Shown: one piece after another, positions 1 to 29,533 of the stretch
How the letters are laid out: each line of letters starts with the position of its first letter
Numbering within the stretch: position 1 is the stretch's first letter
Assembly: GCA_007694945.1 (NCBI GenBank)
Contig: REER01000073.1
Span: 1-64,000, forward strand
Direction of reading: 5' to 3'
From: Paracoccaceae bacterium
Lineage (GTDB): Bacteria; Pseudomonadota; Alphaproteobacteria; Rhodobacterales; Rhodobacteraceae
Length of the DNA: 64,000 nucleotides
The notes under the pieces: generated by a model
The model's input: only the letters and a program-made list of their open reading frames with translations
The model's database searches: none
Told to the model about the DNA's origin: nothing
Program-made: the position numbers and the translations under genes

Positions 1-486
1 GCGGGCCCCGGCGGCATAGGCGGCGGTCACGCCCGAAGGGTCCACATTGCCGCCGTCCGGTTCGAACATGATACAGCGGATGCCGGTGAAATCGACCAGC
101 GGGTGCAGGCGCTCGGCCTCATCGCGCGAGAGTTCGTGGAAATCGATCCCGTAGCGGCGGCCCTTGGCCTCTTGCAGGCGCAGCTGATGCTCGCGCGCCT
201 CGGTCTGCGCCAGATAGAGCGATCCGGGCTGGAAGACGCCGCAGCCCTGACCGGTCTCGGCCTCCAGCTCCTTGTAGAGGGTCATCGTGTAGTGCTGCAT
301 GCGCGAGATGTTGGTGTTGTCATGGAGCCCGTGCAGGTTCGCCGCCGCATGCCAGGTGGAGCCCGAGGTCAGCTCGTCACGCTCCAGCAACACCACATCG
401 GTCCAGCCCAGCTTGGCGAGGTGATAGAGGATCGAGCAGCCGATCACGCCCCCGCCGATGACGACGGCCTGTGCATGCGATTTCAT
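1..486 (-). CDS. FAD-dependent oxidoreductase, dimethylglycine/sarcosine dehydrogenase-like (partial)
   Basis: The reading frame is open to the left edge, so only about 160 N-terminal residues are present. They begin MKSHAQAVVIGGGVIGCS, a Rossmann FAD-binding GxGxxG motif, followed by the ELTSGSTWHAAANLHG segment typical of the dimethylglycine/sarcosine dehydrogenase (DAO) family. Two ATGs lie in tandem; the second is better spaced from the GGAGGA ribosome binding site. It is the last visible gene of a minus-strand run after the TMAO demethylase and the GlxA-type regulator, so a role in N-demethylating a methylated amine is a reasonable inference. The C-terminal folate-binding half, if any, lies outside the window, so the substrate cannot be fixed. 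Confidence 0.8.
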   Translation of the reverse strand, partial: MKSHAQAVVIGGGVIGCSILYHLAKLGWTDVVLLERDELTSGSTWHAAANLHGLHDNTNISRMQHYTMTLYKELEAETGQGCGVFQPGSLYLAQTEAREHQLRLQEAKGRRYGIDFHELSRDEAERLHPLVDFTGIRCIMFEPDGGNVDPSGVTAAYAAGAR

Positions 487-577: not shown

Positions 578-1609
578 TCACGCAGGCGTCCTTGCGCGCA
601 CGCGGAACAGATCGACATCGTCACGATCTTCATGCGGGGTCACGCCAAAGGCCGCGCGATAATGCCGCGACATGCCCGCAACGGTCGAATAGCCGACCGC
701 AAAGGCGACATCGCGCAGGGCCGTGTTCGAGAAGCGCACCATCTGGCGCGCCTCATCAAGGCGCATCTGGCGGTAATAAGCCAGCGGCCCAAGCCCCGTG
801 GCCTGCTTGAATATCCGCTCCAGATGCCGGACCGAGACTGCCGCCTCGCGCGCGACATCTCCTATGGGCATCGGGGTGTCGATATTGTCGCGAAAGACCG
901 CAATTGCGCGCGTCACCGGGGCGGGCAGCATGTCGCTGGCCGAGTCGCCCGTGGCCGAGGGGCGGCGCTGGATGACCGATTCCGAACGCACCATCGGGTG
1001 CTGAAACCAGCAAGCGACCTCGGTCATGATCTGCGTGTCGAGTTCCGCCCCGATCCGGCGCAACATCAGGTCGAAGACAGCATTCGCGCCCGAAGCCGTT
1101 TCCCGTCGCCGGTCGATGGTCATGACCGCGTCACCCGGAATCGCGCGTGGGAAGGCCGCGCGGAAGGCGGCCTCATAACACCAGTGAACGGAGACACGGT
1201 AACCATCGAGCAAGCCCGCCTGCGCCAGTGGAAACACGCCACCGCTGAACGCGCCCATCGTCACGCCTATCCGCTCCAGCCGTCGCAGCGCACCGAGCGT
1301 GCGCTTCGCGTCGACCATCTCCGCCTGCGGGCTGGAGATGACGTATAGCGTGTCCACGCGCTCCAGTGCGTCCAGTGGGGCATGGGCGGCGAACTCGATA
1401 TCGGCGCTGCAGGTGACCGGCGCGCCGGTCTCGGAAATGATCTGCCAATGATAGTGATCATGGCCTGAAATCTGGTTTGCCGCGCGCATCGCCTCAACCG
1501 CCGAGGAGAGGCAGCCCATTGGGAAACCCGGCATGATCAGCAAGGCGACCGTGCCGGCGCGCGAATGCGGTTCCACCCGTCTGCCGTTGAAATTGCTATG
1601 CTGTTTCAT
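578..1609 (-). CDS. GlxA-family (DJ-1/PfpI + AraC) transcriptional regulator
   Basis: A 343-residue protein with an N-terminal class-I glutamine-amidotransferase-like domain (about residues 20-190) and a C-terminal AraC/XylS DNA-binding domain (about 230-335) with two helix-turn-helix segments (PIGDVAREAAVSVRHLERIF and LRDVAFAVGYSTVAGMSRHY). Regulators of this architecture include GbdR, which controls glycine betaine and dimethylglycine catabolism in Pseudomonas. It sits 26 bases after tdm and just before an FAD demethylase-like gene on the same strand, so control of methylated-amine or betaine genes is likely. The ligand is unknown. The gene looks intact although the enzyme genes upstream are decaying. 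Confidence 0.85.
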   Translation of the reverse strand: MKQHSNFNGRRVEPHSRAGTVALLIMPGFPMGCLSSAVEAMRAANQISGHDHYHWQIISETGAPVTCSADIEFAAHAPLDALERVDTLYVISSPQAEMVDAKRTLGALRRLERIGVTMGAFSGGVFPLAQAGLLDGYRVSVHWCYEAAFRAAFPRAIPGDAVMTIDRRRETASGANAVFDLMLRRIGAELDTQIMTEVACWFQHPMVRSESVIQRRPSATGDSASDMLPAPVTRAIAVFRDNIDTPMPIGDVAREAAVSVRHLERIFKQATGLGPLAYYRQMRLDEARQMVRFSNTALRDVAFAVGYSTVAGMSRHYRAAFGVTPHEDRDDVDLFRVRARTPA

Positions 1610-1635: not shown

Positions 1636-3777
1636 TCAGTCATAATTGCCCTTTACCCGTTCCTTGGTGGGGTCGAAATGCGGGCTCCGCACCACTTTAG
1701 CCGCCAGCCGCTTCTGCAAGCCATCAAGCTGGCCGACCTCCAACTCGGTGGCAATCTCGGCATGGGTCACATCCACCGGCGCCAGCGCGATGACCTTGCC
1801 CAGGATGGGCGATCGCATGGCCGAGGTGATCTCGCCCACCTGCGCGCGACCCCGCCGGATGCAATCGCCAGAGGCAGGCACGATCCCGCCCTCGATATCC
1901 AGCCCCACCAGCTTGCGCACCGGGTTCGCCTTGCGTCGCTCCAGCGCGGCTAGCCGTAAAGGGATCAGCCCATGCGGTTGCCCCGCTTCCCAGACGGCAT
2001 CGAACACGGTTTCGGCGTCCTTGGGCGCGCAGAAGATTTCAAACCCCAACTCGCCGGTGTACCCAGTGCGGCTCAGCACCAGCGGCGCCCCGTCATAATT
2101 CCCGATCCGCGCTATGGCGAAGCGGAAACCGCCTAATTCATCGACCGAGGGCTGTGTCGGCGGCGTCCAGATGATCTCGCGCAATAACTCGCGCGAATTC
2201 GGCCCCTGCACGGCGATATTACACAGATGGTCGGTGGCGCTGCGCACATGAACATTCAGACCCTTTTCCTGCGCCACCTCGCGCAGATGCAGCCCCGAGG
2301 CATCGGCGCTGCCTACCCAGCGGAAGTTCGAATCGCTCAGTCGGTAGACGATGCCGTCATCCATCATCCCTCCGTGCTCATGGCAAACAGCGGTATAGGC
2401 GCACTGCCCGACCGACAACTTGCGCATGTCGCTGGTCAAGCAGTATTGAAGCAGCGCCTCCGCATCAGGGCCCAGCACCTCGAACTTGCGCAGGGGCGAC
2501 AGGTCCATCACCACCGCACGCTCACGCCGGGCCCAGTATTCATCAATCGCGCGGTGGCCGGTCATGCCCTGCGCCAGCCAGAAGCCGTTATATTCGACGA
2601 AATTGCGCGTGTGGCGGGCAAAACATTGGTGGAAACCGGTCTCACGCGTCGGCTGCACGGGGCTGTCGGGGCTCATGCGATACCCTTTCGATGGTCTGAA
2701 ATCCTGCCCCTGATCATAGACCCGCACCTGTATGTCCGTAGGGTTCCAGCCATTGGCGGGGTCGATGTCACAGGGGCAGGCGGTGGAGACGCAGACCAGA
2801 TCTGTCAGCGCCTGCAGCGTCACATAGTCACCGGGGCGCGACCTTGGGTCATCCACACCGATGGCGTTGGCATCTTCCAGCATGGTATTGAAAAATATGT
2901 TTATCGCGGGCCAGCCCTTGCGCGGGCGCACATTCCAGCGGGCCAGATCGCGGGTGATATTGTCCGAGCAATTCACATGGCCGGGATAACCCATATCCTC
3001 GAAATACCGCGCGGTGCAGGGCAGCTCGAAGATGTCATGCCGCCCGCAAGTGTCCTGCACGATCTGCACCAGCGGCTCGTGATCCACGGTCAAGTATTTC
3101 GAGAAGATGCACGGTTCGGGATAGAGGCTCCCGATCAGCGTACGCTTGGTGGTGGGGTCGATGTCCCGCTCCAGCCCCTGATCCAGCGCGCGCAGGGAAA
3201 ACACCTGAAAATCCCCGCATTCGCGCCCCTGCACATCGAGGATCTGGATGAACTGGCCCTTGCGCACCTCATAGACCCTGGCCTCACCGGGCAGGATGTT
3301 GAGGTCGGTCAGCGGATCGGCCAGCGGCTCGGGCGGAGCCAGCCCGCCCTTGGCCACGCCGGGGTTGGCGCGGCGGATATAAAGCGCCAGTTCGGTGGGG
3401 GCGGTCTGGGCGGTGGGGTCCGGCACCGGGCCGGGGGCGCGGCCGACGTCGAAGCCTGCTGCCTCCAACCCGCGCAACACGCGGGGGCCCGAGGCATCGG
3501 CCATTAGCGCGTTCTGCAAGCCCCCCGGCGCCCCCTGACCCGCCGCGCCGATCGTGCCTGCATCGGAACGGTCCTGCGGGTCGAAGAAGGTCAGTTCCGC
3601 AAGCTGCATCCCCTCCCGATCTATGATCCAGATCTCGTCAACCGCTTCGATCCGCACTGCGCGCGAGCCGCCCCCCGGAACCGGGTGGCGTTCGGTCCCA
3701 GGCGGTAGGATCGGCAGGCCCGGAACCCGTGCCGCGCCCAGTTGTGTGACTCGTTCGAAGGGCAGAAACAGGCTCAT
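1636..3777 (-). CDS. tdm: Trimethylamine-N-oxide demethylase-like DUF1989-GcvT fusion, probable internal deletion
   Basis: The 713-residue product has an N-terminal DUF1989 domain (about 15-390, with the Cys-rich VCVSTACPCDID at ~328-339) joined to a GcvT folate-binding domain (about 410-700). This is the architecture of Tdm, which converts TMAO to dimethylamine and formaldehyde. The GcvT part keeps GGMMDDGIVY, equivalent to the catalytic Asp region, and SRTGYTGELGFE. From GLIPLRLAAL (~residue 604) it jumps directly to ERRKANPVRKLVG. About 45 residues that GcvT proteins carry here, including the R-x-E-A-G motif, are missing without loss of frame. A good GGAGG site precedes the ATG. It probably encodes an inactive or impaired enzyme; other DUF1989-GcvT substrates cannot be excluded. 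Confidence 0.8.
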   Translation of the reverse strand: MSLFLPFERVTQLGAARVPGLPILPPGTERHPVPGGGSRAVRIEAVDEIWIIDREGMQLAELTFFDPQDRSDAGTIGAAGQGAPGGLQNALMADASGPRVLRGLEAAGFDVGRAPGPVPDPTAQTAPTELALYIRRANPGVAKGGLAPPEPLADPLTDLNILPGEARVYEVRKGQFIQILDVQGRECGDFQVFSLRALDQGLERDIDPTTKRTLIGSLYPEPCIFSKYLTVDHEPLVQIVQDTCGRHDIFELPCTARYFEDMGYPGHVNCSDNITRDLARWNVRPRKGWPAINIFFNTMLEDANAIGVDDPRSRPGDYVTLQALTDLVCVSTACPCDIDPANGWNPTDIQVRVYDQGQDFRPSKGYRMSPDSPVQPTRETGFHQCFARHTRNFVEYNGFWLAQGMTGHRAIDEYWARRERAVVMDLSPLRKFEVLGPDAEALLQYCLTSDMRKLSVGQCAYTAVCHEHGGMMDDGIVYRLSDSNFRWVGSADASGLHLREVAQEKGLNVHVRSATDHLCNIAVQGPNSRELLREIIWTPPTQPSVDELGGFRFAIARIGNYDGAPLVLSRTGYTGELGFEIFCAPKDAETVFDAVWEAGQPHGLIPLRLAALERRKANPVRKLVGLDIEGGIVPASGDCIRRGRAQVGEITSAMRSPILGKVIALAPVDVTHAEIATELEVGQLDGLQKRLAAKVVRSPHFDPTKERVKGNYD

Positions 3778-3807: not shown

Positions 3808-4040
3808 TCAGTTGAACAGATAGGCTTCCATGCTGTCATCGAGCGCGTCAACCCATGGGGTATGGTGCTTCGGCGCCATACTGCCGGTCATCACGGATTT
3901 GTAGGAATTGTTGCGGAAGCCCATGATGTTTTCCTTCTTGCGCTTATTCTAATCGTAGAAGGCCGCAAAGGCACCGTCCACATCGAAGGATAGATAATCG
4001 GTTTCCGAAATCAGTTCGCGCACATACCGCCTGCATAGAT
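3808..4040 (-). pseudogene. tmm: C-terminal remnant of a flavin monooxygenase, probably trimethylamine monooxygenase
   Basis: In one frame the minus strand reads RELISETDYLSFDVDGAFAA, then FYD, an in-frame TAG (3949-3951), NKRKKENI and [20 protein letters not shown] with [18 protein letters not shown], ending at a TGA. The tail resembles, from memory, the C-terminus of bacterial trimethylamine monooxygenase (Tmm), an FAD/NADPH enzyme oxidising TMA to TMAO. The position directly upstream of tdm fits the usual tmm-tdm order. The FAD and NADPH motifs and most of the ~450-residue protein are missing. An ATG at 3924 could start a 38-residue peptide, but this looks like debris. Family assignment is moderate; the pseudogene call is stronger. 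Confidence 0.6.
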
Positions 4041-4130
4041 CAGGCTGATCTCGTCGCGCTTGCCCAGATCGTCGATCGCCTTGCGCGCCTTCCGGATCGC
4101 CGCCATGCCGGGCACGCCGGTAGACGAAGC
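4030..4130 (-). pseudogene. Short remnant resembling an FMN-binding glutamate-synthase-like domain
   Basis: About 30 codons on the minus strand read GVPGMAAIRKARKAIDDLGK followed by RDEISLIYAGG. This resembles the barrel segment of FMN-binding glutamate synthase-like proteins (GltB/GlxD type), some of which form N-methylglutamate synthase in methylamine pathways. The scrap is out of frame with both the glutamine-synthetase-like remnant before it and the flavin-monooxygenase tail after it, as expected if deletions joined pieces of different genes. The open stretch just upstream (about 4130-4270, containing ARDIGMTTEALTGRTQQVF) continues the frame of the glutamine-synthetase-like piece, but I do not recognise it. 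Confidence 0.4.
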
Positions 4131-4269
4131 GCTCTTCCTCGGAGGGCTGACAGAACACCTGTTGCGTGCGCCCGGTCAGCGCCTCGGTGGTCATGCCGAT
4201 GTCGCGGGCGCGCTGTTCCTGCCCGTCACCGCGGCTTTCGCGTTCACGCCTGCCATAGCGGATCGCCTG

Positions 4270-4860
4270 CATGGATACGGGGCGTAGGCTTTCGAACTGG
4301 TCGATGTGGTAGCAGAAGGGTTTGGAGAAGCCGTCGCGCGGCTTGCCATCCTCGTCGAATTTGAGCCACATCATCTCGGGCTCGGCGCCAACGCGCAACT
4401 GCAAGCCATTGTGTTTATTCTGGAGCTCCTGATGCAGGCGACGCAGGTTGCCGCGGCAATCGGCGGTCAGGAACGCGCCGGGATTGACCTTTTCTTCGCG
4501 GTTGCGGAACAGCGTGCAATAGAAGCAGCCAATTTCGGGCGCCCAAGGCAATTGCATGAAGGTTTCAGGCTCGGGAATGCCGATCAGCTCTGCGGCTTCC
4601 GGGCCATAACACAGATATTCGGCATCACGATTGAGGAAAAGGTTCATCGTGGCGCCGTAGACAAGCTGAAACCCCTTCTTGGCCATGCGCTCCCAATGGT
4701 CCGACGGGATGCCCTTGCCCATTATCTTCCCGGTTATGGACACGAATTGCAGGCAGAGATACTCGATTCCCAACTCGTCGATCCTCTTGCGAACTTCGCT
4801 GATCTTCTCGTCGCGGCCGTCGGCCTCTACAAAGGCTTCAATATCTGTTTTCCGGAATAT
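4270..4860 (-). pseudogene. N-terminal remnant of a glutamine synthetase family gene (GlnA/GMAS-like)
   Basis: The minus strand encodes about 195 residues of a glutamine synthetase-type beta-grasp and early catalytic region: GIEYLCLQFVSITGKIMGKG, the MQLPWAPEIGCFYCTLF segment, and GAEPEMMWLK with the first metal-binding Glu pair. The frame then leaves the family after QFESLRPV, where the rest of the enzyme (normally ~430-450 residues) should follow. A strong AGGAGG site (about 4864-4869) precedes it, but the codon three bases later is ATA and no ATG, GTG or TTG in frame lies near it. In methylamine users such proteins include gamma-glutamylmethylamide synthetase, so it fits the locus. Both start and C-terminus are gone. 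Confidence 0.7.
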
Positions 4861-4998
4861 GTCCCTCCTACTGTTCGCCCGGTACTTCCAAGCAAGTGAC
4901 GCGGTGCGAGCTTTGTCTGCTCCCCTATCCTTAGCTGGAACCACTTGTTTTAATTCTGACCTGACGCGAACCACTCCTCCCATATTGAAACGATAGCA

Positions 4999-5068
4999 TG
5001 CACCAAATACCAACCGATATGAAACCATTTTGTTCCCTATTTTGACCAGAAGTTTTAGATTTGGTGCA
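4999..5068. promoter_or_regulatory. Inverted repeat TGCACCAAAT/ATTTGGTGCA, candidate GntR operator
   Basis: Perfect 10-base arms at 4999-5008 and 5059-5068 are separated by 50 bases, in the gap between the broken amine genes and the divergent GntR-type regulator. FadR-subfamily regulators often bind TGGT/ACCA-type half-sites in their own divergent promoter region. The rest of 4861-5160 is AT-richer than its surroundings and holds no convincing gene. Confidence 0.4.
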
Positions 5069-5160
5069 AGAGAAAATGTCACTATATCCTGAGAGTGATC
5101 GTCAGTTATGCAGACGGGCGCGACATTGTGCTGTTCCAAATTGCTGGAGAGTTGCCAGGA

Positions 5161-5832
5161 ATGATGACCGTGAATGCTTCGGATATTGCGACCCATCTCA
5201 GGCAGCAAATCTCCTCGGGCCGATTCGCAGCGCAAGATCGCCTGCCGCCGGAACGGGTTCTGGCAGAACAGTATGGCGTGGCACGCGGGACCGTACGGCG
5301 GGCGCTGCGCCAGCTTGAGCAGTCGCAATTCGTCGAACGTCGGCCCGGGAGCGGAACCTATGTTACATTCTCCGATGGCGCGGCAGATCGGCCTATCTCG
5401 GAAATCACTCGTCCACGCGAACTTGTCGATGCCCGTTTCGCAGTCGAACCGCAGATGTGCCGGCTGGCGGTGCTGCATGCTACAGCCGCGGAACTGGACT
5501 CGCTGCGCGCCCATCTCGAACGGATGGAGGGTTGCGAGCATGACAGCGCAACTTTCGCGGATGTGGACGAAGAATTTCATATTGCCATCGCGCGTTGCAC
5601 ACAGAACCCGATGATCCTTTGTATGATGCGCCAGATTCATGAAACCCGCAGCCATGTCCAATGGGGGCGGATGCGCGAACTAACGCTGAACCCAGAAATC
5701 ATCCGCGTCTACAATCAGCAGCACCGTCAGATCATCTACTCCATCACGCAGCGCGACCCAGAAGGGGCGGCAGATGCAATGAAAAAACACCTCGCCACTG
5801 CGCGCCAAACCCTGGTCGGGTTGGCCGACTGA
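5161..5832 (+). CDS. GntR-family transcriptional regulator, FadR/FCD subgroup
   Basis: The product of 223 residues has an N-terminal winged helix (about 5-70) with the GntR signature LPPERVLAEQYGVARGTVRR, then an all-helical FCD ligand-binding domain with the metal-site pattern DEEFH (~D140/H144) and later histidines around QQHRQII and KKHLATA. The start at the ATG at 5161 has GGAGAG 10 bases upstream; an earlier ATG would add 22 residues that do not belong to the family. It is divergent from the eroded methylamine genes and probably once repressed them. The effector is unknown. The gene is intact. Confidence 0.85.
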   Translation: MMTVNASDIATHLRQQISSGRFAAQDRLPPERVLAEQYGVARGTVRRALRQLEQSQFVERRPGSGTYVTFSDGAADRPISEITRPRELVDARFAVEPQMCRLAVLHATAAELDSLRAHLERMEGCEHDSATFADVDEEFHIAIARCTQNPMILCMMRQIHETRSHVQWGRMRELTLNPEIIRVYNQQHRQIIYSITQRDPEGAADAMKKHLATARQTLVGLAD

Positions 5833-6070
5833 AACTGGCCGAGCCCAGGTGCCGCATTCAGCCGCGATCATGGGGCATCCTTGCGGGCAAGATTGATACG
5901 GCACCCGGGCCCTTTGACTGGTTGCAATGACCTCGAAGCTCAGGTCATCGCAAATCTGCGGCTGGATCCGCCCGAAGCGAAAAAAATCGAGCTGTGCCTT
6001 CTTCATGCAGAGTTCTCTAAAAGCCTGACTATTTTGGAATTGTGTTTAGGGACGCCCTGCCAATCTCATT

Positions 6071-6970
6071 TCAGAACAATCGCCCTGATGGTTCTGCAGA
6101 CGCCGCAAGGGCACGCAGATATGCGCCATAGGCCGTCTTGCCAAATAGCGCCGCGCGCCTGGCAAGTCCGGTCGCATCAATCCAGCCTTGCGCAAAGGCA
6201 ATCTCGTCGGGTGAGCCGATCTGCAAACCCTGGCGCTGCTCCAAAGTGCGCACAAAATTGCCGGCATCAAGCAGACTGTCATGCGTGCCCGTATCGAGCC
6301 AGGCATAGCCGCGGCCCATCGTCTCGACCGACAAACCGCCCTCTGCCAAATACATTTCCAGGAGTGAGGTGATCTCCAGTTCGCCGCGCGCTGAGGGCCG
6401 GACCTGTGCCGCCTTCTCGGGCGCCGTGCCGTCGAGGCAGTAGAGCCCGGTGACCGCGTAATTGGATGGTGGCACGGCAGGCTTCTCGATAATCGCGCGG
6501 GCCTGTCCATTATCGTCGAAATCGACCACACCATAGCGTTCCGGGTCGGCTACACGGTAGCCGAAGACTGTGCCGCCATTCAGCTTTTCATCGGCCCGCG
6601 CCAAAAGCTTGGGTAGTCCATGACCGAAAAAGATATTGTCGCCCAACACCATGAGCGATGGTGCACCCGCTAGGAAATCACGGGCCAGCAGATAGGCCTG
6701 CGCGAGTCCGTCGGGGCTGGCCTGCACGATCCAGTCGAAGCGTAGTCCCCATTGACTGCCATAGCCCAGCAGCCGCTGGAACTGCCCCTGATCCTCAGGC
6801 GTGGTGATGATCCCAATCTCGCGAATACCTGCCAGCATGAGCGCCGAGAGCGGATAATATATCATCGGCTTGTCGTAGAGAGGCAGCAGTTGCTTGCTGA
6901 CACCCATGGTGATCGGCCAGAGCCGTGTACCCGACCCGCCTGCCAGAATGATGCCCTTGCGCTGCGTCAT
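6071..6970 (-). CDS. rfbA: Glucose-1-phosphate thymidylyltransferase
   Basis: This 299-residue nucleotidyltransferase makes dTDP-glucose from glucose-1-phosphate and dTTP, the first step to dTDP-L-rhamnose. It shows the N-terminal GIILAGGSGTRLWPITMG signature, the KPMIYYPLS segment, LGDNIFFGHGLP with the metal-binding Asp, and the family's usual length. It is the last gene of a minus-strand rfbC-rfbB-rfbD-rfbA operon, overlapping rfbD by four bases. The 238-base gap to the GntR gene contains no recognisable gene or clear terminator. Confidence 0.95.
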   Translation of the reverse strand: MTQRKGIILAGGSGTRLWPITMGVSKQLLPLYDKPMIYYPLSALMLAGIREIGIITTPEDQGQFQRLLGYGSQWGLRFDWIVQASPDGLAQAYLLARDFLAGAPSLMVLGDNIFFGHGLPKLLARADEKLNGGTVFGYRVADPERYGVVDFDDNGQARAIIEKPAVPPSNYAVTGLYCLDGTAPEKAAQVRPSARGELEITSLLEMYLAEGGLSVETMGRGYAWLDTGTHDSLLDAGNFVRTLEQRQGLQIGSPDEIAFAQGWIDATGLARRAALFGKTAYGAYLRALAASAEPSGRLF

Positions 6971-7815
6971 GGCCGATCCTTCAGTTCTGCAACCACATCT
7001 TTCAAATCCGCGCGCCAGTCGGGCTGCGTCAGACCGAATTTTGCAAGCCCCACGCAGTCCAGCCGCGAGTTCAGCGGCCGCGGCGCGGGCGTGGGATAAG
7101 CCATGCTGGGAATATCCTCGATCCGGCAGGCAAGCCCGGCCTCAGAGATGATCGCGCGCGCAAAATCCGCCCAGCTGACGGCAGGCGCACCCGACAGGTG
7201 ATAGATGCCCGAAAGATCCGCGCGATCACGCAGCCCCTGTGCCATGCGCAGACTGGCCGCAGCAATCGCACGCGCGGGAGTCGGCCCACCGATCTGATCT
7301 GCCACCACGCGCAGGCTTTCGCGGTCCGCCCCGAGCCGCAGCATGGTGCGCACGAAATTCGTCCCATGGCGGGAAAAGACCCAGGAAGTGCGCAGGATCG
7401 CATGCACCCCGCCCGCCCTACCCACGCCTTCCTCACCCTTGAGTTTCGAGCGCCCATAGGCGTTGATCGGGGATGTGAGGTGGTCTGGCGCGAAATAGGC
7501 CTCACCTGCGCCGTCAAAGACATAATCCGTCGAAATCTGCACGAGGGGTATACCAAGCGCGGCACAGGCCTGCGCCATGGCGGCGGGGCTCGCACCATTG
7601 ATAACGCTCGCCGTGTCTTCCTCGGTCTCGGCCCGGTCCACGGCGGTCCAAGCAGCCGCATTGATCACGGCGTCTGGTCTCTGGGCCGTGATAGCCGCAG
7701 CGCAGGCGCCGGGGTCCAGAAGGTCTGCCTCAGCGCGGCTGAGATATCTGGCCTCAGGGGCCACACGCACAAGTTCACGGGCGACCTGGCCGGTCTGTCC
7801 GAATACGAGAATCAC
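6967..7815 (-). CDS. rfbD: dTDP-4-dehydrorhamnose reductase
   Basis: A 282-residue short-chain dehydrogenase of the extended type that reduces dTDP-4-keto-L-rhamnose to dTDP-L-rhamnose with NAD(P)H. Visible motifs are the N-terminal [15 protein letters not shown] nucleotide-binding loop, STDYVFDG, and the catalytic Tyr-x3-Lys in [10 protein letters not shown] place the start at a GTG overlapping the rfbB stop codon (GTGA), preceded by GGGGG; a longer upstream frame adds residues foreign to the family. Translational coupling with rfbB is likely. Confidence 0.93.
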
Positions 7816-8855
7816 GCTTTGACCCCCAGTCGTTGCCCTACGCCGCGTCGCGCCTGCAAGGGTCGCCACCACTCCTCATTTGCCAGATACCAGGCGACAG
7901 TGCGCCGTAGCCCTTCTTCGATGCTCACCGACGGCCGCCAGCCCAGTTCCTGCCGGATGCGGGTGGGGTCGATCGAATAGCGCGCATCATGGCCGGGCCG
8001 GTCTGGGACGAAGGTGATCTGATCCGCGTGAGAGCCCTGCACTTTCGGTCGCATCTCGTCCAGGATCGCACAGAGCATGCGCACCAGTTCGAGATTGCTG
8101 CGCTCATTCTCGCCGCCGATATTGTAGCTGCGTCCGATCCGGCCTTTTGCCAGCAGCAGCAGAAGCGCCTCCGCGTGATCCTCGACATAAAGCCAGTCGC
8201 GCACATTGGAGCCATCACCGTAAATCGGTAGAGGTTTGCCCGCCAGCGCATTGAGGATGATAACTGGCACCAGCTTTTCGGGAAAATGGTAGGGACCGTA
8301 ATTGTTTGAACAATTGCTCAGCACCACTGGCAGGCCATAGGTATGGTGCCAGGCGCGCACCAGATGGTCGCTGGCCGCCTTTGAGGCCGCATAGGGCGAA
8401 CGCGGGTCATAGGGCGTCGCTTCAGTGAACTGCCCCTTCGGCCCTAGCGAGCCGAAGACTTCATCGGTCGAGATATGATGGAAGCGGAAGCTCTTTGGCC
8501 GCCCCCTTCCCCGCCAATAAACACGTGCCGCCTCGAGAAGCTCATAGGTGCCCGTGACATTGGTCGAGATGAAATCTCCGGGTCCGTCGATCGAGCGGTC
8601 GACATGGCTCTCGGCGGCCAGATGCATGACCGAATCAGGCTGATGGGCCGCAAAGATGCGCGCAAGCGCTGCGCGGTCGCGGATATCGGCCCTCTCGAAG
8701 GCATAAAGCGGGCTTTCGGCCACGGGCGCCAGATTCTCCAGACAGGCTGCATAGGTCAAAGCGTCGAGATTGACCACTGCATGGCCCCGCGCCACCGCGA
8801 GCCGCACTACAGCCGAGCCTATGAACCCCGCACCCCCTGTAACCAGAAGTTTCAT
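7812..8855 (-). CDS. rfbB: dTDP-glucose 4,6-dehydratase
   Basis: The 347-residue enzyme converts dTDP-glucose to dTDP-4-keto-6-deoxyglucose using bound NAD. It has the N-terminal [12 protein letters not shown] Rossmann motif, [15 protein letters not shown], the [10 protein letters not shown] catalytic Asp-Glu pair, and [14 protein letters not shown] with the Tyr-x3-Lys pair, plus the [15 protein letters not shown] segment. It lies second in the rfbCBDA operon, three bases after rfbC. The product is inferred to feed rhamnose-containing surface polysaccharide made with nearby glycosyltransferases. Confidence 0.96.
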
Positions 8856-8858
8856 CCC

Positions 8859-9413
8859 TTACCCTTCAAATAGAAATGGGCTCTCAAAATCAGAAAAAAG
8901 CGGCGCTTTCGCGTCCTTCTCGGACAAAACCGGCACAACTGCCCCCCAGTCGATGCCGACCGAATCCCAGGCCACCGCCCCGTAACAGTCCGGCGCGTAG
9001 ATATCCGTGCACTTATACTGCACCTCGCAATCCTCGGTCAGTGTCAGAAACCCGTGCAGAAACCCTTTGGGCACATAAAGCTGCGTGCCGGTCTCGGCCG
9101 AGAGTTCCACTGCGACATGCTGACCATAGGTTGGCGAGCCTTTGCGCGCATCCACTGCCACATCGAGGATCATACCGCGCGTACACCGTACCAGCTTGTC
9201 CTGCGCATGGGGCGGGCGCTGGAAGTGCAGGCCCCGCAAAGTGTGGCGCGGCGCGGAATAGCTGTGATTGTCCTGCACGAATTCGGGCCATTCGAGCCCC
9301 GCCGCGGCCAAGGCCGCGCGGTTCCAGGTCTCGGAGAACCAGCCGCGCGCATCCCCAAAGCGGCGCGGTGTGACCAGAACGGGCCCAGACAGAGAAAATA
9401 TCTTGATATCCAT
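8859..9413 (-). CDS. rfbC: dTDP-4-dehydrorhamnose 3,5-epimerase
   Basis: A 184-residue cupin-type epimerase that inverts C3 and C5 of dTDP-4-keto-6-deoxyglucose. Key elements are DARGWFSETWN, QDNHSYSAPRHTLRGLHFQR with the catalytic His, and YVPKGFLHGFLTL. It is the first gene of the rfbCBDA operon, so the promoter should lie in the gap to its right, which also carries a transposase remnant. Length is normal for the family. Confidence 0.95.
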   Translation of the reverse strand: MDIKIFSLSGPVLVTPRRFGDARGWFSETWNRAALAAAGLEWPEFVQDNHSYSAPRHTLRGLHFQRPPHAQDKLVRCTRGMILDVAVDARKGSPTYGQHVAVELSAETGTQLYVPKGFLHGFLTLTEDCEVQYKCTDIYAPDCYGAVAWDSVGIDWGAVVPVLSEKDAKAPLFSDFESPFLFEG

Positions 9414-9899
9414 AGGCGCCTCTTGATGCCTTGACTACCGCTTACACCAATAAACCTCGATCGGAAATGTGTTCAGGGAGTTTGCCAGGTTCTGCTTCTG
9501 CTTGGTTCCGGCATTTAACGGAGATCACGAGGGCTGTTGTGGCGTTAACCTTAGCAACTGTATTTCTCAAGCGGTCTGGCTGCCCCTCTTTTGCCGAGAT
9601 TTACACAACGCGTTGGCGATTGCGACGAGTTTTCGGGCGATGGCAATGCTGACAACCTTTTGTGGTTTCCCAGCGGCGCGCAGACGGCCAGCTCAGGACG
9701 CTTTGTTTAAGCCGGCCAAAACCGGGTGGCTTCGTGATAGCAGGTGCCGTGCCGGACGAAAACGCTTGATCATGCCGTAGCGCTAGGACATCTTGCAGCT
9801 TATCGGCACCGATCGCGGCGGATGTCAGGTTGAGGTGCCAATAAGGCCAAGATCGATAGCACTGCGGTCTGCGATGGCACCGGATTTAGGGAGGCCGGC
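9414..9899. other. Intergenic region with IS debris upstream of rfbC
   Basis: This 486-base gap between the divergent rfbC and glycosyltransferase genes holds an IS110-type transposase tail (listed separately) and otherwise no coding region I can support. Short open frames on both strands here have no family resemblance. It must contain the promoter of the rfb operon, but I could not pick out convincing -35/-10 boxes. Confidence 0.6.
9567..9689 (-). mobile_element. Remnant of an IS110-family transposase C-terminus
   Basis: The minus strand reads GRLRAAGKPQKVVSIAIARK followed by LVAIANALCKSRQKRGSQTA and a stop. This matches the conserved C-terminal region of IS110/IS116-type transposases (R-L-R-x-x-G-K-P-x-K-V ... 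A-R-K-L ... A-N-A). The preceding transposase sequence, including its catalytic DEDD and Ser regions, is absent, and a stop codon lies just upstream, so the element is dead. It marks a past insertion or rearrangement at the edge of the polysaccharide genes. Confidence 0.6.
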
Positions 9900-10640
9900 T
9901 TGGCCGCAAACACTCAGGTTTCCGTCATCGTTCCGACATTTGGGCGCCAGAAGCTGTTCCCGCTGATTTATGACTGCTTTTTGAATCAGACAATCAAGAC
10001 AGCGGAGTTGCTGATCCATGACGACAGCCCCGAGCGGTCCAGTTTCTTTGATGGCCTTCCTGGTGTCCGTTATTTCCATTCACGAGAGAGGCTTTCGATT
10101 GGGAGAAAACGGAATTTCCTTATCGAGCAGGCCTCGTCCGAGGTAATCGCCCATTTCGATGACGACGATTACTATGCGCCTCGCTACCTCGCCACCATGC
10201 TTGGACATCTACAAGATTGTGACTTTGTCAATATTGGAGGGTGGTTTGCCTTTTGTGTAAGCGAACGCGCCTTCGGATACTGGGATACGACGCAACAGCC
10301 TCTCGTCCATTTTCTTTTTCAAACGAACAAGCCCGTTGGTCTCGTCAGAAGTCTTGGCGTTCAGGATGCATATATGCGGGGCTACGGGTTCAAGTATCTC
10401 TATCGGAAGAGCATCTGGAAGGCTTGCCGGTTTCCGGACAGAAACCATGGCGAGGATTATGAATGGGTAAAGAAACTACCTGAGACCGTGCGCATGAAGA
10501 CAATCATCGACGATGTCGGCTTAGTTCTGCATATCATCCACACCTCCAATTCTTCGAGGTGTTTTCCAACCCACCATCTGCCCATACGACTTCTAGGCAG
10601 GTTTTTCGGAGACGAGGTCCAGCGATATATCGAGACTTGA
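9900..10640 (+). CDS. Family 2 glycosyltransferase
   Basis: The 246-residue product starts with the GT-A fold pattern VSVIVPTFGRQKLFPLIYDC and has a DDSPER segment and the metal-binding DDDDYY motif (~residues 92-97), as in family 2 glycosyltransferases that move a sugar from a nucleotide donor to a glycan or lipid carrier. I start it at a TTG preceded at good distance by GGGAGG. No membrane segment is evident. It has lower GC than the neighbouring genes and lies beside an IS remnant and dTDP-rhamnose genes, suggesting an acquired polysaccharide gene. Donor and acceptor are unknown. Confidence 0.8.
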   Translation: MAANTQVSVIVPTFGRQKLFPLIYDCFLNQTIKTAELLIHDDSPERSSFFDGLPGVRYFHSRERLSIGRKRNFLIEQASSEVIAHFDDDDYYAPRYLATMLGHLQDCDFVNIGGWFAFCVSERAFGYWDTTQQPLVHFLFQTNKPVGLVRSLGVQDAYMRGYGFKYLYRKSIWKACRFPDRNHGEDYEWVKKLPETVRMKTIIDDVGLVLHIIHTSNSSRCFPTHHLPIRLLGRFFGDEVQRYIET

Positions 10641-10981
10641 CTTGCCGGCCTGTCGAGATCGGAGCAGCGACCCTGCCCGCTGCACAATGGTCGTTTTCAT
10701 CTGATGATTTAGGCAAAGTCGCCTTTGAACCCGCAATGACGAGACATTGCGATCAGTGTCAGCGAGGACAACGCAAGTTTCCGCATCACATCGACTCCAT
10801 TACCGGCCATGACTTAGACGTCTCGACCAGCACCGACACGCTGCTGGGCACCACAAAGCCTGGATCCACAGACCCAGATACGATCATTCAAGTTGCCAAG
10901 AACGTGCGAAGAGATGAGGCCCAAATCCAACGCTGAGAAGCTGTAGACAGGCCAAACAGGGCTGCGCACCGGTCGGTGCCA
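10641..10981. other. Intergenic region with no supported gene
   Basis: The 341 bases between the glycosyltransferase and the convergent Lrp-type gene contain open frames in several phases but none with a ribosome binding site plus family resemblance. Together with the preceding gene it may be part of the rearranged island. I see no terminator hairpin with a T-run. Confidence 0.5.
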
Positions 10982-11437
10982 TCATCGCATTGGAAACACC
11001 ATACTGTCCTTCACGGTGCCATAGGCGAAGCTTGAATCAATCGATCCGATGCCGCCGACGCGTTGCAGGCGCGCACGAATGAAGTGCTCGTAGGCTTCCA
11101 GCGATTCGACAACGACTCGTAACTGATAATCGGTCTGGCCGGTCATCACATGGCATTCCAACACCTCATCCATCCGCCCGACCTCACGTTCGAACGTCTG
11201 TACGGTGGTCTCGTCGTGGCGCTCCAGCCGGATGCGGACGAAAGCGGTGATCGGCAATCCATAAGCACGGGCATCTACCCGGGCCGCGTAACCGAGGATG
11301 ACACCACTCTTCTCGAGATTGCGCAAGCGCCGCAAGCAGGGTGAGGGCGAGAGTTTGACCGCAGTGGCCAGATCCTGATTCGACATGCGCCCGTCGCGTT
11401 GCAGGGCACGGATAATCTGGCGGTCCTTTTCATCCAT
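10982..11437 (-). CDS. mdeR: Lrp/AsnC-family regulator, probable MdeR
   Basis: This 151-residue regulator has an N-terminal helix-turn-helix (IIRALQRDGRMSNQDLATAV, LSPSPCLRRLRNLEKSG) and a C-terminal RAM/ligand-binding domain with HVMTGQTDYQLRVVVESL. It is divergent from a methionine gamma-lyase gene followed by an AceE-like E1, the same arrangement as mdeR-mdeA-mdeB of Pseudomonas putida, where the Lrp-type MdeR activates the lyase operon. By context it probably senses methionine or a related amino acid. Confidence 0.85.
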   Translation of the reverse strand: MDEKDRQIIRALQRDGRMSNQDLATAVKLSPSPCLRRLRNLEKSGVILGYAARVDARAYGLPITAFVRIRLERHDETTVQTFEREVGRMDEVLECHVMTGQTDYQLRVVVESLEAYEHFIRARLQRVGGIGSIDSSFAYGTVKDSMVFPMR

Positions 11438-11464
11438 CTTTTGGAGCCTATCGTGGCAGATTAT

Positions 11465-11485
11465 GCTAAAGTAATGCAGTTTAGC
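11465..11485. promoter_or_regulatory. Palindromic candidate operator GCTAAA-N9-TTTAGC
   Basis: A 21-base inverted repeat with perfect six-base arms lies in the 111-base divergent gap between the Lrp-type regulator and the methionine gamma-lyase. Lrp-family proteins bind such AT-rich interrupted palindromes. It is the only clear dyad in the gap. Confidence 0.45.
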
Positions 11486-11548
11486 GCCAAAGAACGCAAT
11501 CTTTTGGATAACATTCTTAGATATCCTGCTTCAAACAGGAGATCGCAC

Positions 11549-12751
11549 ATGACTCAATCCCAAGGCTTCGCAACCCGCGCCATCCACCTCGGCTACAATC
11601 CAATGGAGCACGAGGGTGCATTGACACCCCCGCTTCACCTGACATCGACCTTCTCTTTCGAGACTGCGGAAGCGGGTGGCGAGATCTTTGCCGGCGACCG
11701 ACCTGGCCACATTTATTCGCGTATCTCGAACCCCACGCTCGACTTGCTGGAGCGCCGCGTCGCCGATCTGGAGGGGGGCGAAGCAGGGCTGGCGCTGGCC
11801 TCGGGCATGGGAGCGATCACCGCAATACTCTGGACGCTGCTCTCACCGGGCGACGAGGTCATCGTCGACAAGACACTTTACGGCTGCACCTTTGCATTCA
11901 TGCATCATGGGCTCAGAAAGTTCGGCATCACCATCACCCATGTCGACCTGACCAACCCGGACAATCTGACTGCGGCCCTGAATGAGCGCACCCGTGTGGT
12001 CTATTTCGAGACGCCCGCCAACCCGAACATGCGGCTGGTGGATATCACCGCGGTCGCTGCCATCTCTCATGCCGGGGGCGCGCAGGTGGTTGTCGACAAC
12101 ACCTATGCCACCCCCTATCTGACAAAGCCCATCGCGCTTGGGGCCGACCTGGTGCTGCATTCGGCGACCAAGTATCTTGGTGGCCACGGCGATCTGGTGG
12201 CCGGCGTGGTGGTCGGCCGGGCTGGAGCTGTCAGTGAGATCCGTCTTGTCGGGATGAAAGACATGACGGGGGCGGTGATGGCCCCCTTCAACGCGATGCT
12301 GATCCTGCGCGGACTGAAAACCCTCGCGCTGCGGATGGAGCGGCACTGTGCCAGCGCGCAGGTGGTGGCTGAGTGGCTGGGGGCTCACCCCGAGGTCGCC
12401 AACGTCCACTACCCGGGTCTGGAAGGCTTCGGGCAGCACGCCCTCGCGCGCAGACAGATGGCGCTGCCCGGCGCGATGATCGCCTTCGAGTTGAAAGGCG
12501 GCCTTGAGGCGGGACGGCGCATGATGAACGGGTTGCGGATGATTGCGCGGGCGGTGTCGCTGGGCGATGCAGAAACCCTGATCCAGCATCCCGCCTCGAT
12601 GACCCATTCCACCTACACGCCTGAGGAACGCGCAATGCATGGCATCGGTGACGGGCTGATCCGGCTTTCCGTGGGGCTTGAAGATGTCGCCGACATCCTC
12701 AACGATCTGGACGATGCGCTGACGCCCCAACATGTAATGCGCAGCACCTGA
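11549..12751 (+). CDS. mdeA: Methionine gamma-lyase
   Basis: A 400-residue Cys/Met-metabolism PLP enzyme that would split L-methionine into methanethiol, ammonia and 2-oxobutyrate. It shows YSRISNPT, SGMGAITAILWTLLSPGD, the PLP-lysine motif SATKYLGGHGD (Lys at about 208) and the KDMTGAVMAPFNAMLILRGL block typical of methionine gamma-lyases rather than cystathionine lyases. The ATG at 11549 has AGGAG eight bases before it; a longer frame would run into the divergent regulator. A cystathionine gamma-lyase activity cannot be ruled out, but the downstream 2-oxoacid dehydrogenase supports the MdeA call. Confidence 0.9.
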   Translation: MTQSQGFATRAIHLGYNPMEHEGALTPPLHLTSTFSFETAEAGGEIFAGDRPGHIYSRISNPTLDLLERRVADLEGGEAGLALASGMGAITAILWTLLSPGDEVIVDKTLYGCTFAFMHHGLRKFGITITHVDLTNPDNLTAALNERTRVVYFETPANPNMRLVDITAVAAISHAGGAQVVVDNTYATPYLTKPIALGADLVLHSATKYLGGHGDLVAGVVVGRAGAVSEIRLVGMKDMTGAVMAPFNAMLILRGLKTLALRMERHCASAQVVAEWLGAHPEVANVHYPGLEGFGQHALARRQMALPGAMIAFELKGGLEAGRRMMNGLRMIARAVSLGDAETLIQHPASMTHSTYTPEERAMHGIGDGLIRLSVGLEDVADILNDLDDALTPQHVMRST

Positions 12752-12767
12752 CTCCTGCGGGGTCACT

Positions 12768-15134
12768 ATGAACCCGGACGCACACCACCTCAAGACCATC
12801 GAGCAGCGGCTGTTATGGTTGTCGCACTGGATGATCCATTACGCCAATCACATCCGACCCAAAGTGGACGGGATCAAGACCGGCGGGCATCAGGCATCCT
12901 CTGCCTCGATGGTGTCGATCATGACTGCGCTCTATTTCTCTGCGCTTCGCCCGGAGGATCGGGTCGCGGTCAAGCCCCATGCCGGCCCGGTGTTTCATGC
13001 CATGCAATATCTAATTGGCAACCTGGACCTTGCTCGGATGCAAGCCTTTCGCGGTCTTGGCGGGGTACAGAGCTACCCCTCGCGTACCAAGGATCTCGAT
13101 GATGTCGACTTCTCGACCGGTTCGGTCGGGCTGGGGGTGGCGATCACGAACTTCGCGTCACTGGTTCAGGATTACATCACGGCAAAGGACTGGGGCGGGA
13201 ACGTTCCGCTGGGCCGGATGGTGGCGCTGGTCGGCGATGCCGAACTCGACGAGGGCAATATCTACGAAGCCTTGCAAGAAGGCTGGAAGAACGATCTTCG
13301 CAATTGCTGGTGGATTATCGACTATAACCGTCAGTCTTTGGACGGGATCGTGCGCGAAGGGCTGTTCGAGCGGGTCGAGAAGATCTTCGACGCTTTCGGA
13401 TGGGATGTGGTGCGCATCAAATATGGCGCACTGCAACGCGCGGCCTTCGATGAACCCGGCGGCCATGCGCTGCGCGACTGGATCGACAGTTGCCCCAACG
13501 CCGAGTATTCGGCGCTGACCTATATGGGCGGCGCGGTATGGCGAAAGAGGTTGATGGATGATCTGGGCGATCAGGGTGATGTGAGCGCGCTGATTGACAG
13601 GCGCTCGGATGCGGAACTGGCCGCGCTGATGGAGAACCTGGGCGGCAATTGCGTGCAAACCATGGCCGAGAGCTTCGCTGCAATCGACCACGACCGACCG
13701 ACCTGTTTTCTGGCCTATACCGTCAAGGGATGGGGCACGCCGATCGCAGGGCACAAGGACAATCATGGCGGGTTGATGACCAAGGCGCAGATGGCCGAAT
13801 GGCAGCGCCATATGAGTGTTCCGGAAGGTCAGGAATGGGAACCCTTCGCAGGCGCCTCCGATCCGGAGGAACTGCGCGAATTCCTCTCGCGCGTGTCGTT
13901 CTTCGCTAAGGGCGTGCGACGTTTTTCGGATGCGCGTCTGGCAGTGCCGAAGATCGAATTCTCCACAGACCGTGAGATTTCCACCCAAATGGCCTTCGGA
14001 AAGATGCTGGACGATCTGGCCAAGGGCGAAAGCGAGCTGGCAGGGCGGATTGTAACCACCTCACCGGATGTCACCGGCACCACCGGGCTTGGGCCTTGGG
14101 TGAATCGACGCAAGCTATTCTCGCGCACCGCACAGAAGGACGCCTTTATCGAACATCGCATTCCCTCGACTGCGAGATGGGTGTTTGCCCCGGACGGCCA
14201 GCATATCGAACTGGGGATCGCGGAGATGAACCTCTTCCTGTTGCTGGGCGCGGCCGGGCTGTCGCATAGCCTGTTCGGAAAGCGGCTCATTACCATTGGC
14301 ACAGTCTATGACCCCTTCGTGCATCGCGGCCTCGATGCACTGAACTACGCCTGTTATCAGGATGCCCGTTTCATCATCGCGGGCACTCCCTCGGGTGTGA
14401 CACTGGCACCCGAGGGTGGCGCGCACCAGTCCGTCGGGACACCACTGACCGGCATGGCGCAGGACGGGCTGGCCAGTTTCGAGCCGGCGTTTGCGGATGA
14501 ACTGGCAGTGATCCTCGAATGGGCTTTTGATTATCTGCAGCGCGATGGCGAGGGCGACCCGGACGAGCGGACCTGGCTGCGCGACGAGACCGGCGGCTCA
14601 GTTTATCTGCGGCTAACCACGAAACCCCTGGAGCAGCCTGGCAAGCGGCATGACGACGCCTTCCGCCAAGGCGCCATCGACGGAGCCTACTGGCTCCGCA
14701 AACCGGGGGCGAATTGCGAGGTGGTGATCGCCTACCAGGGCGCCGTGGCCGATGAGGCCATCGCAGCGGCTGGTCGGATCGGCAGTTCACGGCGCGACAT
14801 CGGCGTGTTGGCGGTCACCTCTGCCGATCGGCTGAACGCGGGCTGGACGGCGGCACAACGCGAGCGCGCGCGCGGAAATCCCGCCGCACTCAGCCATATT
14901 GAACGGCTGTTGACCCCCTTGCCCCGCCACTGCTCGCTGGTCACAGTGCTGGATGGCCACCCTGCCACGCTGAGCTGGCTCGGGGCCGTGGCCGGACACC
15001 GCACCATCGCGCATGGCGTTGAGCATTTCGGGCAGACTGGCACCATCGGCGACCTCTATCGCCACTTCCGTATCGACCGCGACGCGCTGGTGGCTTCCGT
15101 GAATGGGCTGACAAGCGGAAATTGGTGCGAATGA
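12768..15134 (+). CDS. mdeB: Homodimeric 2-oxoacid dehydrogenase E1 (AceE-like), probable 2-oxobutyrate dehydrogenase MdeB
   Basis: The 788-residue thiamine-diphosphate enzyme resembles the AceE-type E1 of pyruvate dehydrogenase. It shows GHQASSASMVSIMTALYFSA, VDFSTGSVGLG, the ThDP motif GDAELDEGN...DYNRQSLDG (about 158-192), and the C-terminal transketolase domain with LGIAEMNLFLLLGAAG. It is about 100 residues shorter than E. coli AceE, mainly at the N-terminus, the part that in AceE binds the E2 core. It starts 16 bases after mdeA, so it probably oxidises the 2-oxobutyrate made by the lyase to propionyl-CoA. No E2 or E3 gene is nearby. Confidence 0.85.
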   Translation: MNPDAHHLKTIEQRLLWLSHWMIHYANHIRPKVDGIKTGGHQASSASMVSIMTALYFSALRPEDRVAVKPHAGPVFHAMQYLIGNLDLARMQAFRGLGGVQSYPSRTKDLDDVDFSTGSVGLGVAITNFASLVQDYITAKDWGGNVPLGRMVALVGDAELDEGNIYEALQEGWKNDLRNCWWIIDYNRQSLDGIVREGLFERVEKIFDAFGWDVVRIKYGALQRAAFDEPGGHALRDWIDSCPNAEYSALTYMGGAVWRKRLMDDLGDQGDVSALIDRRSDAELAALMENLGGNCVQTMAESFAAIDHDRPTCFLAYTVKGWGTPIAGHKDNHGGLMTKAQMAEWQRHMSVPEGQEWEPFAGASDPEELREFLSRVSFFAKGVRRFSDARLAVPKIEFSTDREISTQMAFGKMLDDLAKGESELAGRIVTTSPDVTGTTGLGPWVNRRKLFSRTAQKDAFIEHRIPSTARWVFAPDGQHIELGIAEMNLFLLLGAAGLSHSLFGKRLITIGTVYDPFVHRGLDALNYACYQDARFIIAGTPSGVTLAPEGGAHQSVGTPLTGMAQDGLASFEPAFADELAVILEWAFDYLQRDGEGDPDERTWLRDETGGSVYLRLTTKPLEQPGKRHDDAFRQGAIDGAYWLRKPGANCEVVIAYQGAVADEAIAAAGRIGSSRRDIGVLAVTSADRLNAGWTAAQRERARGNPAALSHIERLLTPLPRHCSLVTVLDGHPATLSWLGAVAGHRTIAHGVEHFGQTGTIGDLYRHFRIDRDALVASVNGLTSGNWCE

Positions 15135-15302
15135 ATAGATTGTTTATGGCTTTCGACCGCCTCGGCCCACGGGGCTGCCCATCCGGCCTGATTACCGAGT
15201 CACGCTGACTGCGGCGAGGGGCCAGTATTGGTTGGACACCCTACTCTATTCGAGCCGGGGTCCACCTGTGCTGCGACGCGCTGACCACGACGCGCCACCC
15301 GC

Positions 15303-16166: not shown

Positions 16167-16169
16167 GCG

Positions 16170-18011: not shown

Positions 18012-18071
18012 GGGTTATCCTCCTGAATATGCGTCACCCTTAGCGCATGGGCGGTTTTGGGGGAAGAGGCG

Positions 18072-19037: not shown

Positions 19038-19044
19038 CCTGCTC

Positions 19045-19064
19045 CTTCATCTTGCCAGAAATAC
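19045..19064 (-). repeat. Dispersed border motif copy 1
   Basis: Read on the minus strand this is GTATTTCTGGCAAGATGAAG, just before the GAAGGAG ribosome binding site of dgcA. It is one of five near-identical copies at gene borders in this window. Confidence 0.6.
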
Positions 19065-19117
19065 CCTGAGGTAGATTGGGGCGCAGGCCCAAAGGGGGCA
19101 ACGCCCCTCCTCCCCGC

Positions 19118-20119: not shown

Positions 20120-20324
20120 GGCATGTTCCAGATGGCTGACGATGTTTCTGAATTAAATTCTAGCCAAACGTCACGCAAATTCATCGGAAATGCGAGGGGG
20201 CAGCGACGAAGATATAGGAAGTTCTGTCGCAAAGTCGTAGATTCGCACAAGAAATGCCCGCAAGGTAAATCGCGCTCTCGTGCCGCGTCGCGGCATCGCG
20301 TGCTTTGCGCGCGCAGAAAACAGC

Positions 20325-20342
20325 TTGCGCCGTCTTACGCAA
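20325..20342. promoter_or_regulatory. Inverted repeat TTGCG-N8-CGCAA upstream of malyl-CoA lyase
   Basis: Five-base arms with an eight-base spacer lie 57 bases before the mcl1 start, in the 279-base divergent gap with dgcN. It could be an operator for the acyl-CoA or ethylmalonyl-CoA regulators known to act near such genes, but short arms make chance likely. No gene is visible in this gap. Confidence 0.25.
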
Positions 20343-29525: not shown

Positions 29526-29533
29526 GAAGGGCC

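Follow-up and report, generated by a model that had tools for sequence, protein, structure and literature searches.

The minus strand between a divergent GntR-type regulator and tdm contains no intact gene when it is translated in three frames, and the locus is very probably the decayed remnant of a single operon that was intact in the ancestor shared with a relative from the same genus, referred to here as G004. The window, a stretch of 64,000 nucleotides from a Paracoccaceae bacterium that is related to the roseobacters (contig REER01000073.1 of assembly GCA_007694945.1), carries on the minus strand of positions 3808-4866 the collinear remnants of four genes, namely a glutamine-synthetase-like gene, an mgsB-like and an mgsC-like gene and tmm. 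The first of these is labelled GS493, for the 493-codon open frame that it forms in G004. The ancestral order would have been GS493, mgsA-like, mgsB-like, mgsC-like, a gene for a 136-aa protein, a gene of ~200 aa, tmm and tdm, with the GntR gene divergent; that tmm followed directly on the other genes is a step we infer, as the G004 sequence breaks there. On the window lineage at least five deletions, an in-frame stop, the loss of a start codon and a frame shift would then have left nothing intact of tmm, GS493 or any of the three glutamate-synthase-like genes, with damage to tdm as well.

Trimethylamine (TMA) would no longer be oxidised by this route, and the demethylation of trimethylamine N-oxide (TMAO) is probably lost too, if tdm has lost its function. 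Only the TMA-to-TMAO-to-DMA end would have gone, since a different contig of the genome (C141) still has a canonical gmaS, mgsABC-type genes and some of an mgd-type operon in open form. The initial annotation, which read the locus as the erosion of trimethylamine degradation, thus stands for the breakdown of TMA itself but not for the later part of the pathway.

Remnants at the locus

Translation in the minus frames followed by a family search of each piece bears out the earlier proposal that several separate genes are present (Table 1). The glutamine-synthetase piece matches the N-terminal part of TIGR03105 (E 3.1e-15, 55.6 bits). The mgsB-like piece alone has no meaningful family match (best E 0.062) and is 90% identical over 40 aa to the GXGXG-domain gene of G004, while the mgsC-like piece has a weak match to Glu_synthase (PF01645, E 0.014; 15 bits, cut-off 20.4) and is 77.5% identical over 40 aa to the FMN-domain gene of G004. 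The tmm pieces on either side of the in-frame stop both match NF058570 (E 8.5e-4 and 4.8e-18), as expected from the C-terminus of tmm with an in-frame stop that had been recognised at the outset. The tmm stop codon starts at 3808 and the lost GS493 start aligns to ~4856-4858, and the limits first given to the region (3808-4866) are right; the GntR gene, described as intact, is indeed still open. It had been thought that two, probably three genes were involved; they are indeed multiple, but four leave remnants, and what was taken for one glutamate-synthase-like scrap comes from two genes. A single eroded glutamine-synthetase gene was rejected, since the pieces map to four G004 genes, and the idea that they all belong to one family likewise fails, the pieces matching separate, collinear genes in G004.

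A minus-strand open frame of 570 codons, 3949-5661, starts antisense inside the GntR gene and spans GS493, the mgsB-like piece and part of tmm, and might be annotated as a protein by a gene finder. On the other side of tdm the AraC/DJ-1-type regulator has GbdR as its top NCBIfam match, under the cut-off of that family, and next to it, truncated by the contig start, is an FAD-oxidoreductase and GcvT-domain gene (window 1-486), named from the family matches of its G004 counterpart, whose product has 813 aa and which lies ahead of an ammonium transporter gene.

Table 1. Genes, gene remnants and deletion junctions at the locus, in window coordinates
Feature	Position	Strand	Remarks
AraC/DJ-1-type regulator adjoining tdm	578..1609	-	open, without gap against G004
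tdm (trimethylamine N-oxide demethylase family), 713-aa open frame	1636..3777	-	two internal in-frame deletions
D1, 138 bp missing, GcvT-type folate domain of tdm	1939..1941	-	2 bp exact microhomology
D2, 90 bp missing, N-terminal part of tdm	3435..3436	-	exact microhomology 0
tmm (trimethylamine monooxygenase), C-terminal remnant	3808..4026	-	in-frame stop 3949-3951
D3, mgsC-like/tmm junction	4023-4026	-	3 bp microhomology
FMN-domain glutamate-synthase-like (mgsC-like) remnant	4024..4122	-	frame differs from those of its neighbours
D4, 1638 bp missing	~4120-4126	-	~2 bp shared; a few window bases match neither copy
GXGXG-domain gene (mgsB-like), N-terminal remnant	4123..4254	-	match to G004
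D5, 1870 bp missing	4253-4257	-	4 bp microhomology
GS493 N-terminal remnant, ~200 of 493 codons	4255..4858	-	start codon lost, frame shift right after the start
GntR/FCD regulator	5095..5832	+	open full-length, divergent from GS493

Counterpart in the relative G004

Among the 35 other genomes of the genus that were searched, G004 has the sole close copy, to which the 193-aa glutamine-synthetase piece is 92% identical, and GS493 is present in 2 of 36 genus members. The GS493 protein of G004 is in turn 100% identical to a copy on SLJW01000051.1, a record of a Rhodobacteraceae bacterium assembled from a metagenome (isolate CSSed165cm_253); the label CSSed is met with in papers on a Siberian soda lake. 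In G004, too, the locus is interrupted, being divided between two contigs within the operon. The first contig has the same rml genes and GntR gene as the window, then GS493, the three glutamate-synthase-like genes, the 136-aa gene and the start of the ~200-aa gene, where it ends, and the second begins inside tmm and continues with tdm (789 aa) and the same AraC-type regulator. GS493, the glutamate-synthase-like genes and tdm are full-length in G004, with tmm open but truncated by the contig end.

Aligned to the DNA of G004, the pieces of the window keep their order; the aligned segments are 88.6 to 97% identical, and three long gaps separate them. No long gap interrupts the nearest flanks (window 4859-9110 and 2-1635), and further out the lengths agree closely, with 10629 against 10630 bases in G004 for window 10765-21393, 8607 against 8607 for 21383-29989 and 20000 against 20022 for 30001-50000; this comparison of ~39 kb is one of end-to-end lengths, with small internal gaps uncounted and window 9111-10764 and 50001-64000 left out. 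Within it, a stretch of ~25-43 bp at window 33278-33320 matches 20 further places in G004 besides the syntenic one at 88-100% identity, and looks like a short dispersed repeat.

The serial deletions and the loss of several kilobases that had been proposed are confirmed against G004, at 1870 bp, 1638 bp and an estimated ~2.6 kb. D5 takes the rest of GS493, the whole mgsA-like gene and the start of the mgsB-like gene, D4 takes the rest of the mgsB-like and the first part of the mgsC-like gene, and D3 runs from the mgsC-like gene through to about tmm codon 365. The size of D3 can only be estimated because G004 is broken there, and combines ~2.0 kb found on the two G004 contigs with a link of ~0.6 kb judged from another relative (L089). 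At D1 and D2 in tdm there is an imperfect 11-base overlap between the BLAST segments. Since no more than 0 to 4 bases are shared exactly at any junction, the deletions probably arose by slippage or end joining, a mechanism that, like the order of the events, we infer.

Pattern of substitution

Changes were polarised by an outgroup, and amino-acid and silent changes on each branch were compared by a one-sided Fisher test. In the GS493 piece, with two Roseovarius outgroups, the window branch has 12 amino-acid and 3 silent changes and the G004 branch has 1 and 6 (p 0.0066). With a third relative, L065, as outgroup the window has 13 and 2 and G004 has 0 and 13 (p given as 0.0), a test that is less clean because L065 may be the sister of G004, and when L065 replaces G004 the excess is weaker and only suggestive (12 and 13 in the window, 2 and 10 in L065, p 0.067). 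A similar excess is found in tdm, where the window has 21 amino-acid and 13 silent changes and G004 has 4 and 12 (three congeners as outgroup, p 0.016). In the tmm remnant the window has 6 and 6 changes and G004 has 0 and 2 when L089 is the outgroup; when three outgroups are used the window has 5 and 0 and G004 has none of either kind. For the GntR gene the counts are 4 and 2 against 1 and 6 (p 0.086), and it may or may not be decaying itself.

Eleven residues of the GS493 piece that are invariant in eight relatives are altered in the window, while the matching test of GS493 from G004 against seven relatives found no invariant residue altered. Pairwise dN/dS against G004 is 0.13 for tdm and 0.19 for the GS493 piece, with five neighbouring genes at 0.07 to 0.30, and is not telling alone. 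The locus combines two features of pseudogenes, disabling changes that are absent from a close relative and relaxed selection in this lineage. The case is strong for GS493 and tmm and weaker for tdm.

State of tdm

The initial annotation missed the damage to tdm, which has lost 46 and 30 codons and encodes 713 aa, against 789 aa in G004. Its score against NF053776 is 965.3 bits (main piece 803.4), under the cut-off of 1100, and that of the G004 protein is 1209.7. Ten tdm proteins were aligned, from nine congeners and one further locus (L137), and 36 of the 46 residues removed by D1 are invariant among them, which leaves the GcvT-type folate domain of the window protein incomplete; for D2 this holds for 5 of 30 residues. 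At the invariant positions that remain the window protein departs at 56 of 334 and that of G004 at 43 of 375, thus most of this divergence is shared and older than the decay.

Two positions of tdm are Asp in the solved chain 9q59 and Ala in 9q5a, and we read both as probably catalytic. All 15 sequences compared, that of the window included, keep Asp at the first. At the second, nine congeners and L087 have Asp, while a Cys is found in the window, G004, L137, L114 and L126; as the Cys is common to the window and G004 it is a trait of the lineage and does not count as damage to the window copy. Tdm may thus come in two kinds, and with a Cys in place of the Asp that is altered in 9q5a even the intact form in G004, L137, L114 and L126 may differ in substrate or chemistry from the TMAO demethylase known from earlier work. 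The Cys-type loci are window 1636-3777, L058 962-3331, L137, L114 and L126.

The function of the window Tdm is probably lost because of the deletion in the folate domain. It could be that the enzyme is shortened but active, since the frame is open, each deletion takes out a whole number of codons and the dN/dS between the window and G004 copies is low, and a broader form of this idea is that the whole locus has been trimmed and still works, with the long frame at 3949-5661, 570 codons without a stop, encoding a new protein. We consider such a working locus very unlikely. Most of the folate-domain residues that D1 removes are those that relatives keep without exception, and the excess of amino-acid changes extends to tdm. 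The long frame begins antisense in the GntR gene, GS493 has no start codon left and the frame of the mgsC-like piece is a different one. The GS493 piece breaks off near residue 204 of 493, short of both the HED motif (214) and the stretch 305-488 that is the best Pfam match of its catalytic domain. A tdm called from this genome by a loose search would be a damaged gene. Among the matches listed for the genome of the window there is no second tdm, the others being of 168 bits or less.

Assembly and origin of the locus

Decay of an operon once intact is also to be preferred to an error of assembly, in which false joins from co-assembled related strains would hide a real operon that is intact. 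The genome is certainly fragmented (3.18 Mb in 145 contigs, 95.4% completeness), and G004 breaks inside the same operon, which may mean that the stretch is hard to assemble. However, the five junctions have at most 4 exactly shared bases, with 11-bp imperfect overlaps at the two in tdm, both the in-frame stop and the loss of the start codon are at some distance from them, and the ~39 kb of flank are clean in length. So few shared bases are far below the usual word length of assemblers. A false assembly would, moreover, not explain the excess of amino-acid changes in the remnants, and we regard this explanation as highly improbable.

The origin of the operon is a separate matter. Among its 32 best matches the tdm of G004 is 62.5-70% identical to loci outside the genus and 54.5-58.9% to congeners, which suggests, without proving, that the operon may have been acquired by transfer, and for tmm the contrast is smaller (81.0% to L089, 76.7% to L122 and 72.8-75.2% to congeners). 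That the fragments arrived by horizontal transfer already broken, so that the operon was never complete here, would fit this foreign affinity and the scarcity of GS493 in the genus, but is the least probable of the explanations, as the corresponding site in G004, with the same rml genes next to it, has GS493, the glutamate-synthase-like genes and tdm at full length.

The GS493 operon in relatives

For a wider view of the operon, the 80 best of 588 GS493 relatives from named records were compared, and all of the following neighbourhood counts refer to these. Of the 71 loci with room upstream, 61 have a divergent GntR gene at a distance of up to 3.3 kb, and three glutamate-synthase-like genes follow GS493 in 62 of 68. 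There are 52 loci that have those genes and at least 9 kb downstream, and all 52 have the 136-aa gene, 17 have tmm and 9 have tdm; 25 have either, only L137 has both and 27 have neither. It had been claimed that the eroded genes are full-length neighbours in relatives, which is true of the block of GS493 and the glutamate-synthase-like genes and much less so of tmm and tdm. In many relatives the 136-aa and ~200-aa genes are separated by a gene for a carbon-nitrogen hydrolase, for which there is no room in G004. Two members of the 136-aa protein (e.g. L024 462-872) were searched and match no NCBIfam or Pfam family. The name 'flavin reductase' for the ~200-aa gene before tmm was dropped, as no Pfam or NCBIfam family was found for it.

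The glutamine-synthetase piece, at first counted in a trimethylamine degradation module, does not come from gmaS. GS493 of G004 reaches 316.2 bits against the type III family TIGR03105, below its cut-off of 469.6, and a canonical gmaS is open on C141, so that gmaS was rejected as the eroded gene in favour of a paralogue. In the libraries searched GS493 falls in the glutamine synthetase superfamily and has no named function. Its score is 193.5 bits to PDB 7cql, which we take to be RhGmaS (its table name is type III glutamate--ammonia ligase), and so no better than the 202 bits to the ordinary glutamine synthetase 8ool. GmaS of Rhodovulum (RhGmaS, 7cql; PMC7948447) is like GS493 in belonging to the glutamine synthetase superfamily and in its place beside three glutamate-synthase-like genes. 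The three mgs-type genes of G004 have the expected domains, a class II amidotransferase, GXGXG (PF01493) and an FMN-binding glutamate synthase (PF01645), with the last two over their cut-offs and the amidotransferase matches below the cut-offs of those families. The set on C141 and the set of the GS493 operon are 40% (mgsB) and 52% (mgsC) identical.

A tentative reading, which we hold to be possible but doubtful, is that GS493, the mgsABC-like genes and the 136-aa gene form a second, undescribed pathway of the gamma-glutamyl-amide type that would be tied to the TMA/TMAO end and not to methylamine. It draws on the constancy of the 136-aa gene, on the position of the block upstream of tmm or tdm in 25 of the 52 loci, on the frequent divergent GntR gene, and on the decay of the block together with tmm in a genome where gmaS-mgsABC stayed open. 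The 27 of 52 loci with neither tmm nor tdm downstream count against it.

Comparison with known systems

The TMA cluster of Ruegeria pomeroyi comprises tmm, tdm, dmmDABC, gmaS-mgsABC, mgdABCD, TmoR and TmaR (PMC13390433, PMC5520151), with TmoR a GntR protein that represses tmm (PMC13390433). The window locus resembles the cluster so described in that it combines tmm and tdm with a GntR gene nearby (TmoR there) and an AraC-type regulator (TmaR there), the likeness being one of family. It differs in that tmm is a remnant, tdm is damaged and the adjoining glutamine-synthetase-like and glutamate-synthase-like genes are paralogues of gmaS-mgsABC. The tdm of G004 matches the trimethylamine N-oxide demethylase structures 9q59 and 9q5a over residues 27-787 (928 bits), whereas the window copy is without 46 folate-domain and 30 N-terminal residues, and both have a Cys at one of the two Asp/Ala positions.

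Bacterial operons that have become pseudogenes or are partly deleted typically carry deletions between short homologies, stops and frame shifts and show relaxed selection, and the window locus is not different in kind. It is ordinary pseudogenisation, unusually well resolved. The eroded locus itself was not found described in a limited literature search. Its value is as a case of pathway loss in which undamaged counterparts at the same site (GS493, the glutamate-synthase-like genes and tdm), clean flanks and several separate deletions can all be seen.

Genes retained in the genome and tmm across the genus

Genes for other parts of methylamine metabolism are kept. The 10.2 kb contig C141 has an open gmaS of 439 aa (665 bits against TIGR03105 and 638.3 bits to 7cql) and open genes of 298, 227 and 447 aa with amidotransferase, GXGXG and glutamate-synthase domains, which are of the mgsABC type. 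It also has a sarcosine-oxidase-alpha-like gene that is truncated by the contig end, and the matching contig of G004 has alpha- and beta-type subunits. From position and family we take these genes as putative members of an mgd operon and, together with gmaS-mgsABC, this assignment suggests that the use of methylamine is probably retained.

Two further genes touch on amine and nitrogen metabolism. An NADP-type glutamate dehydrogenase gene (L146 4876-6261 on C141; 528.7 bits, just short of the cut-off of 536) separates gmaS from the helix-turn-helix/cupin regulator that follows, and is absent in G004, where its flanks are nearly adjacent. A gene like the haem-dependent oxidative N-demethylases (PF11927, L154 8948-9778 on contig C22) has no match in G004; its identification as dimethylamine monooxygenase was not adopted, as dmm neighbours were not established.

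In a search of the whole genome the tmm remnant covers positions 365-441 of 443 with one in-frame stop and scores 95.7 bits, far under the NF058570 cut-off of 675. The tmm of G004 is also under this cut-off (506.1 and 533.7 bits), because the contig end removes its N-terminus. No other full-length tmm is seen in the assembly, in which the family is otherwise matched by just one gene, of the flavin-monooxygenase-like kind, on contig C135 (75.3 bits), and G004 has such a gene too (75.8 bits). Given the 145 contigs and the estimated completeness, an intact tmm could lie in an unassembled part.

Across 37 genomes of the genus tmm is over the cut-off in 14, partial in 2 (G004 and G002) and a remnant in the window, with 20 genomes without it, 19 with no match and 1 with a weak one in a profile search by which small scraps could be missed. 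As tmm is so patchy in the genus, the window genome may show how its loss proceeds. A tdm over its cut-off is found in 14 of the 37 genomes, with a partial tdm in G023, and comparison of the two lists gives 12 genomes in which both tmm and tdm are over the cut-off. Matches over the cut-off of TIGR03105 are found in 30 of the 37.
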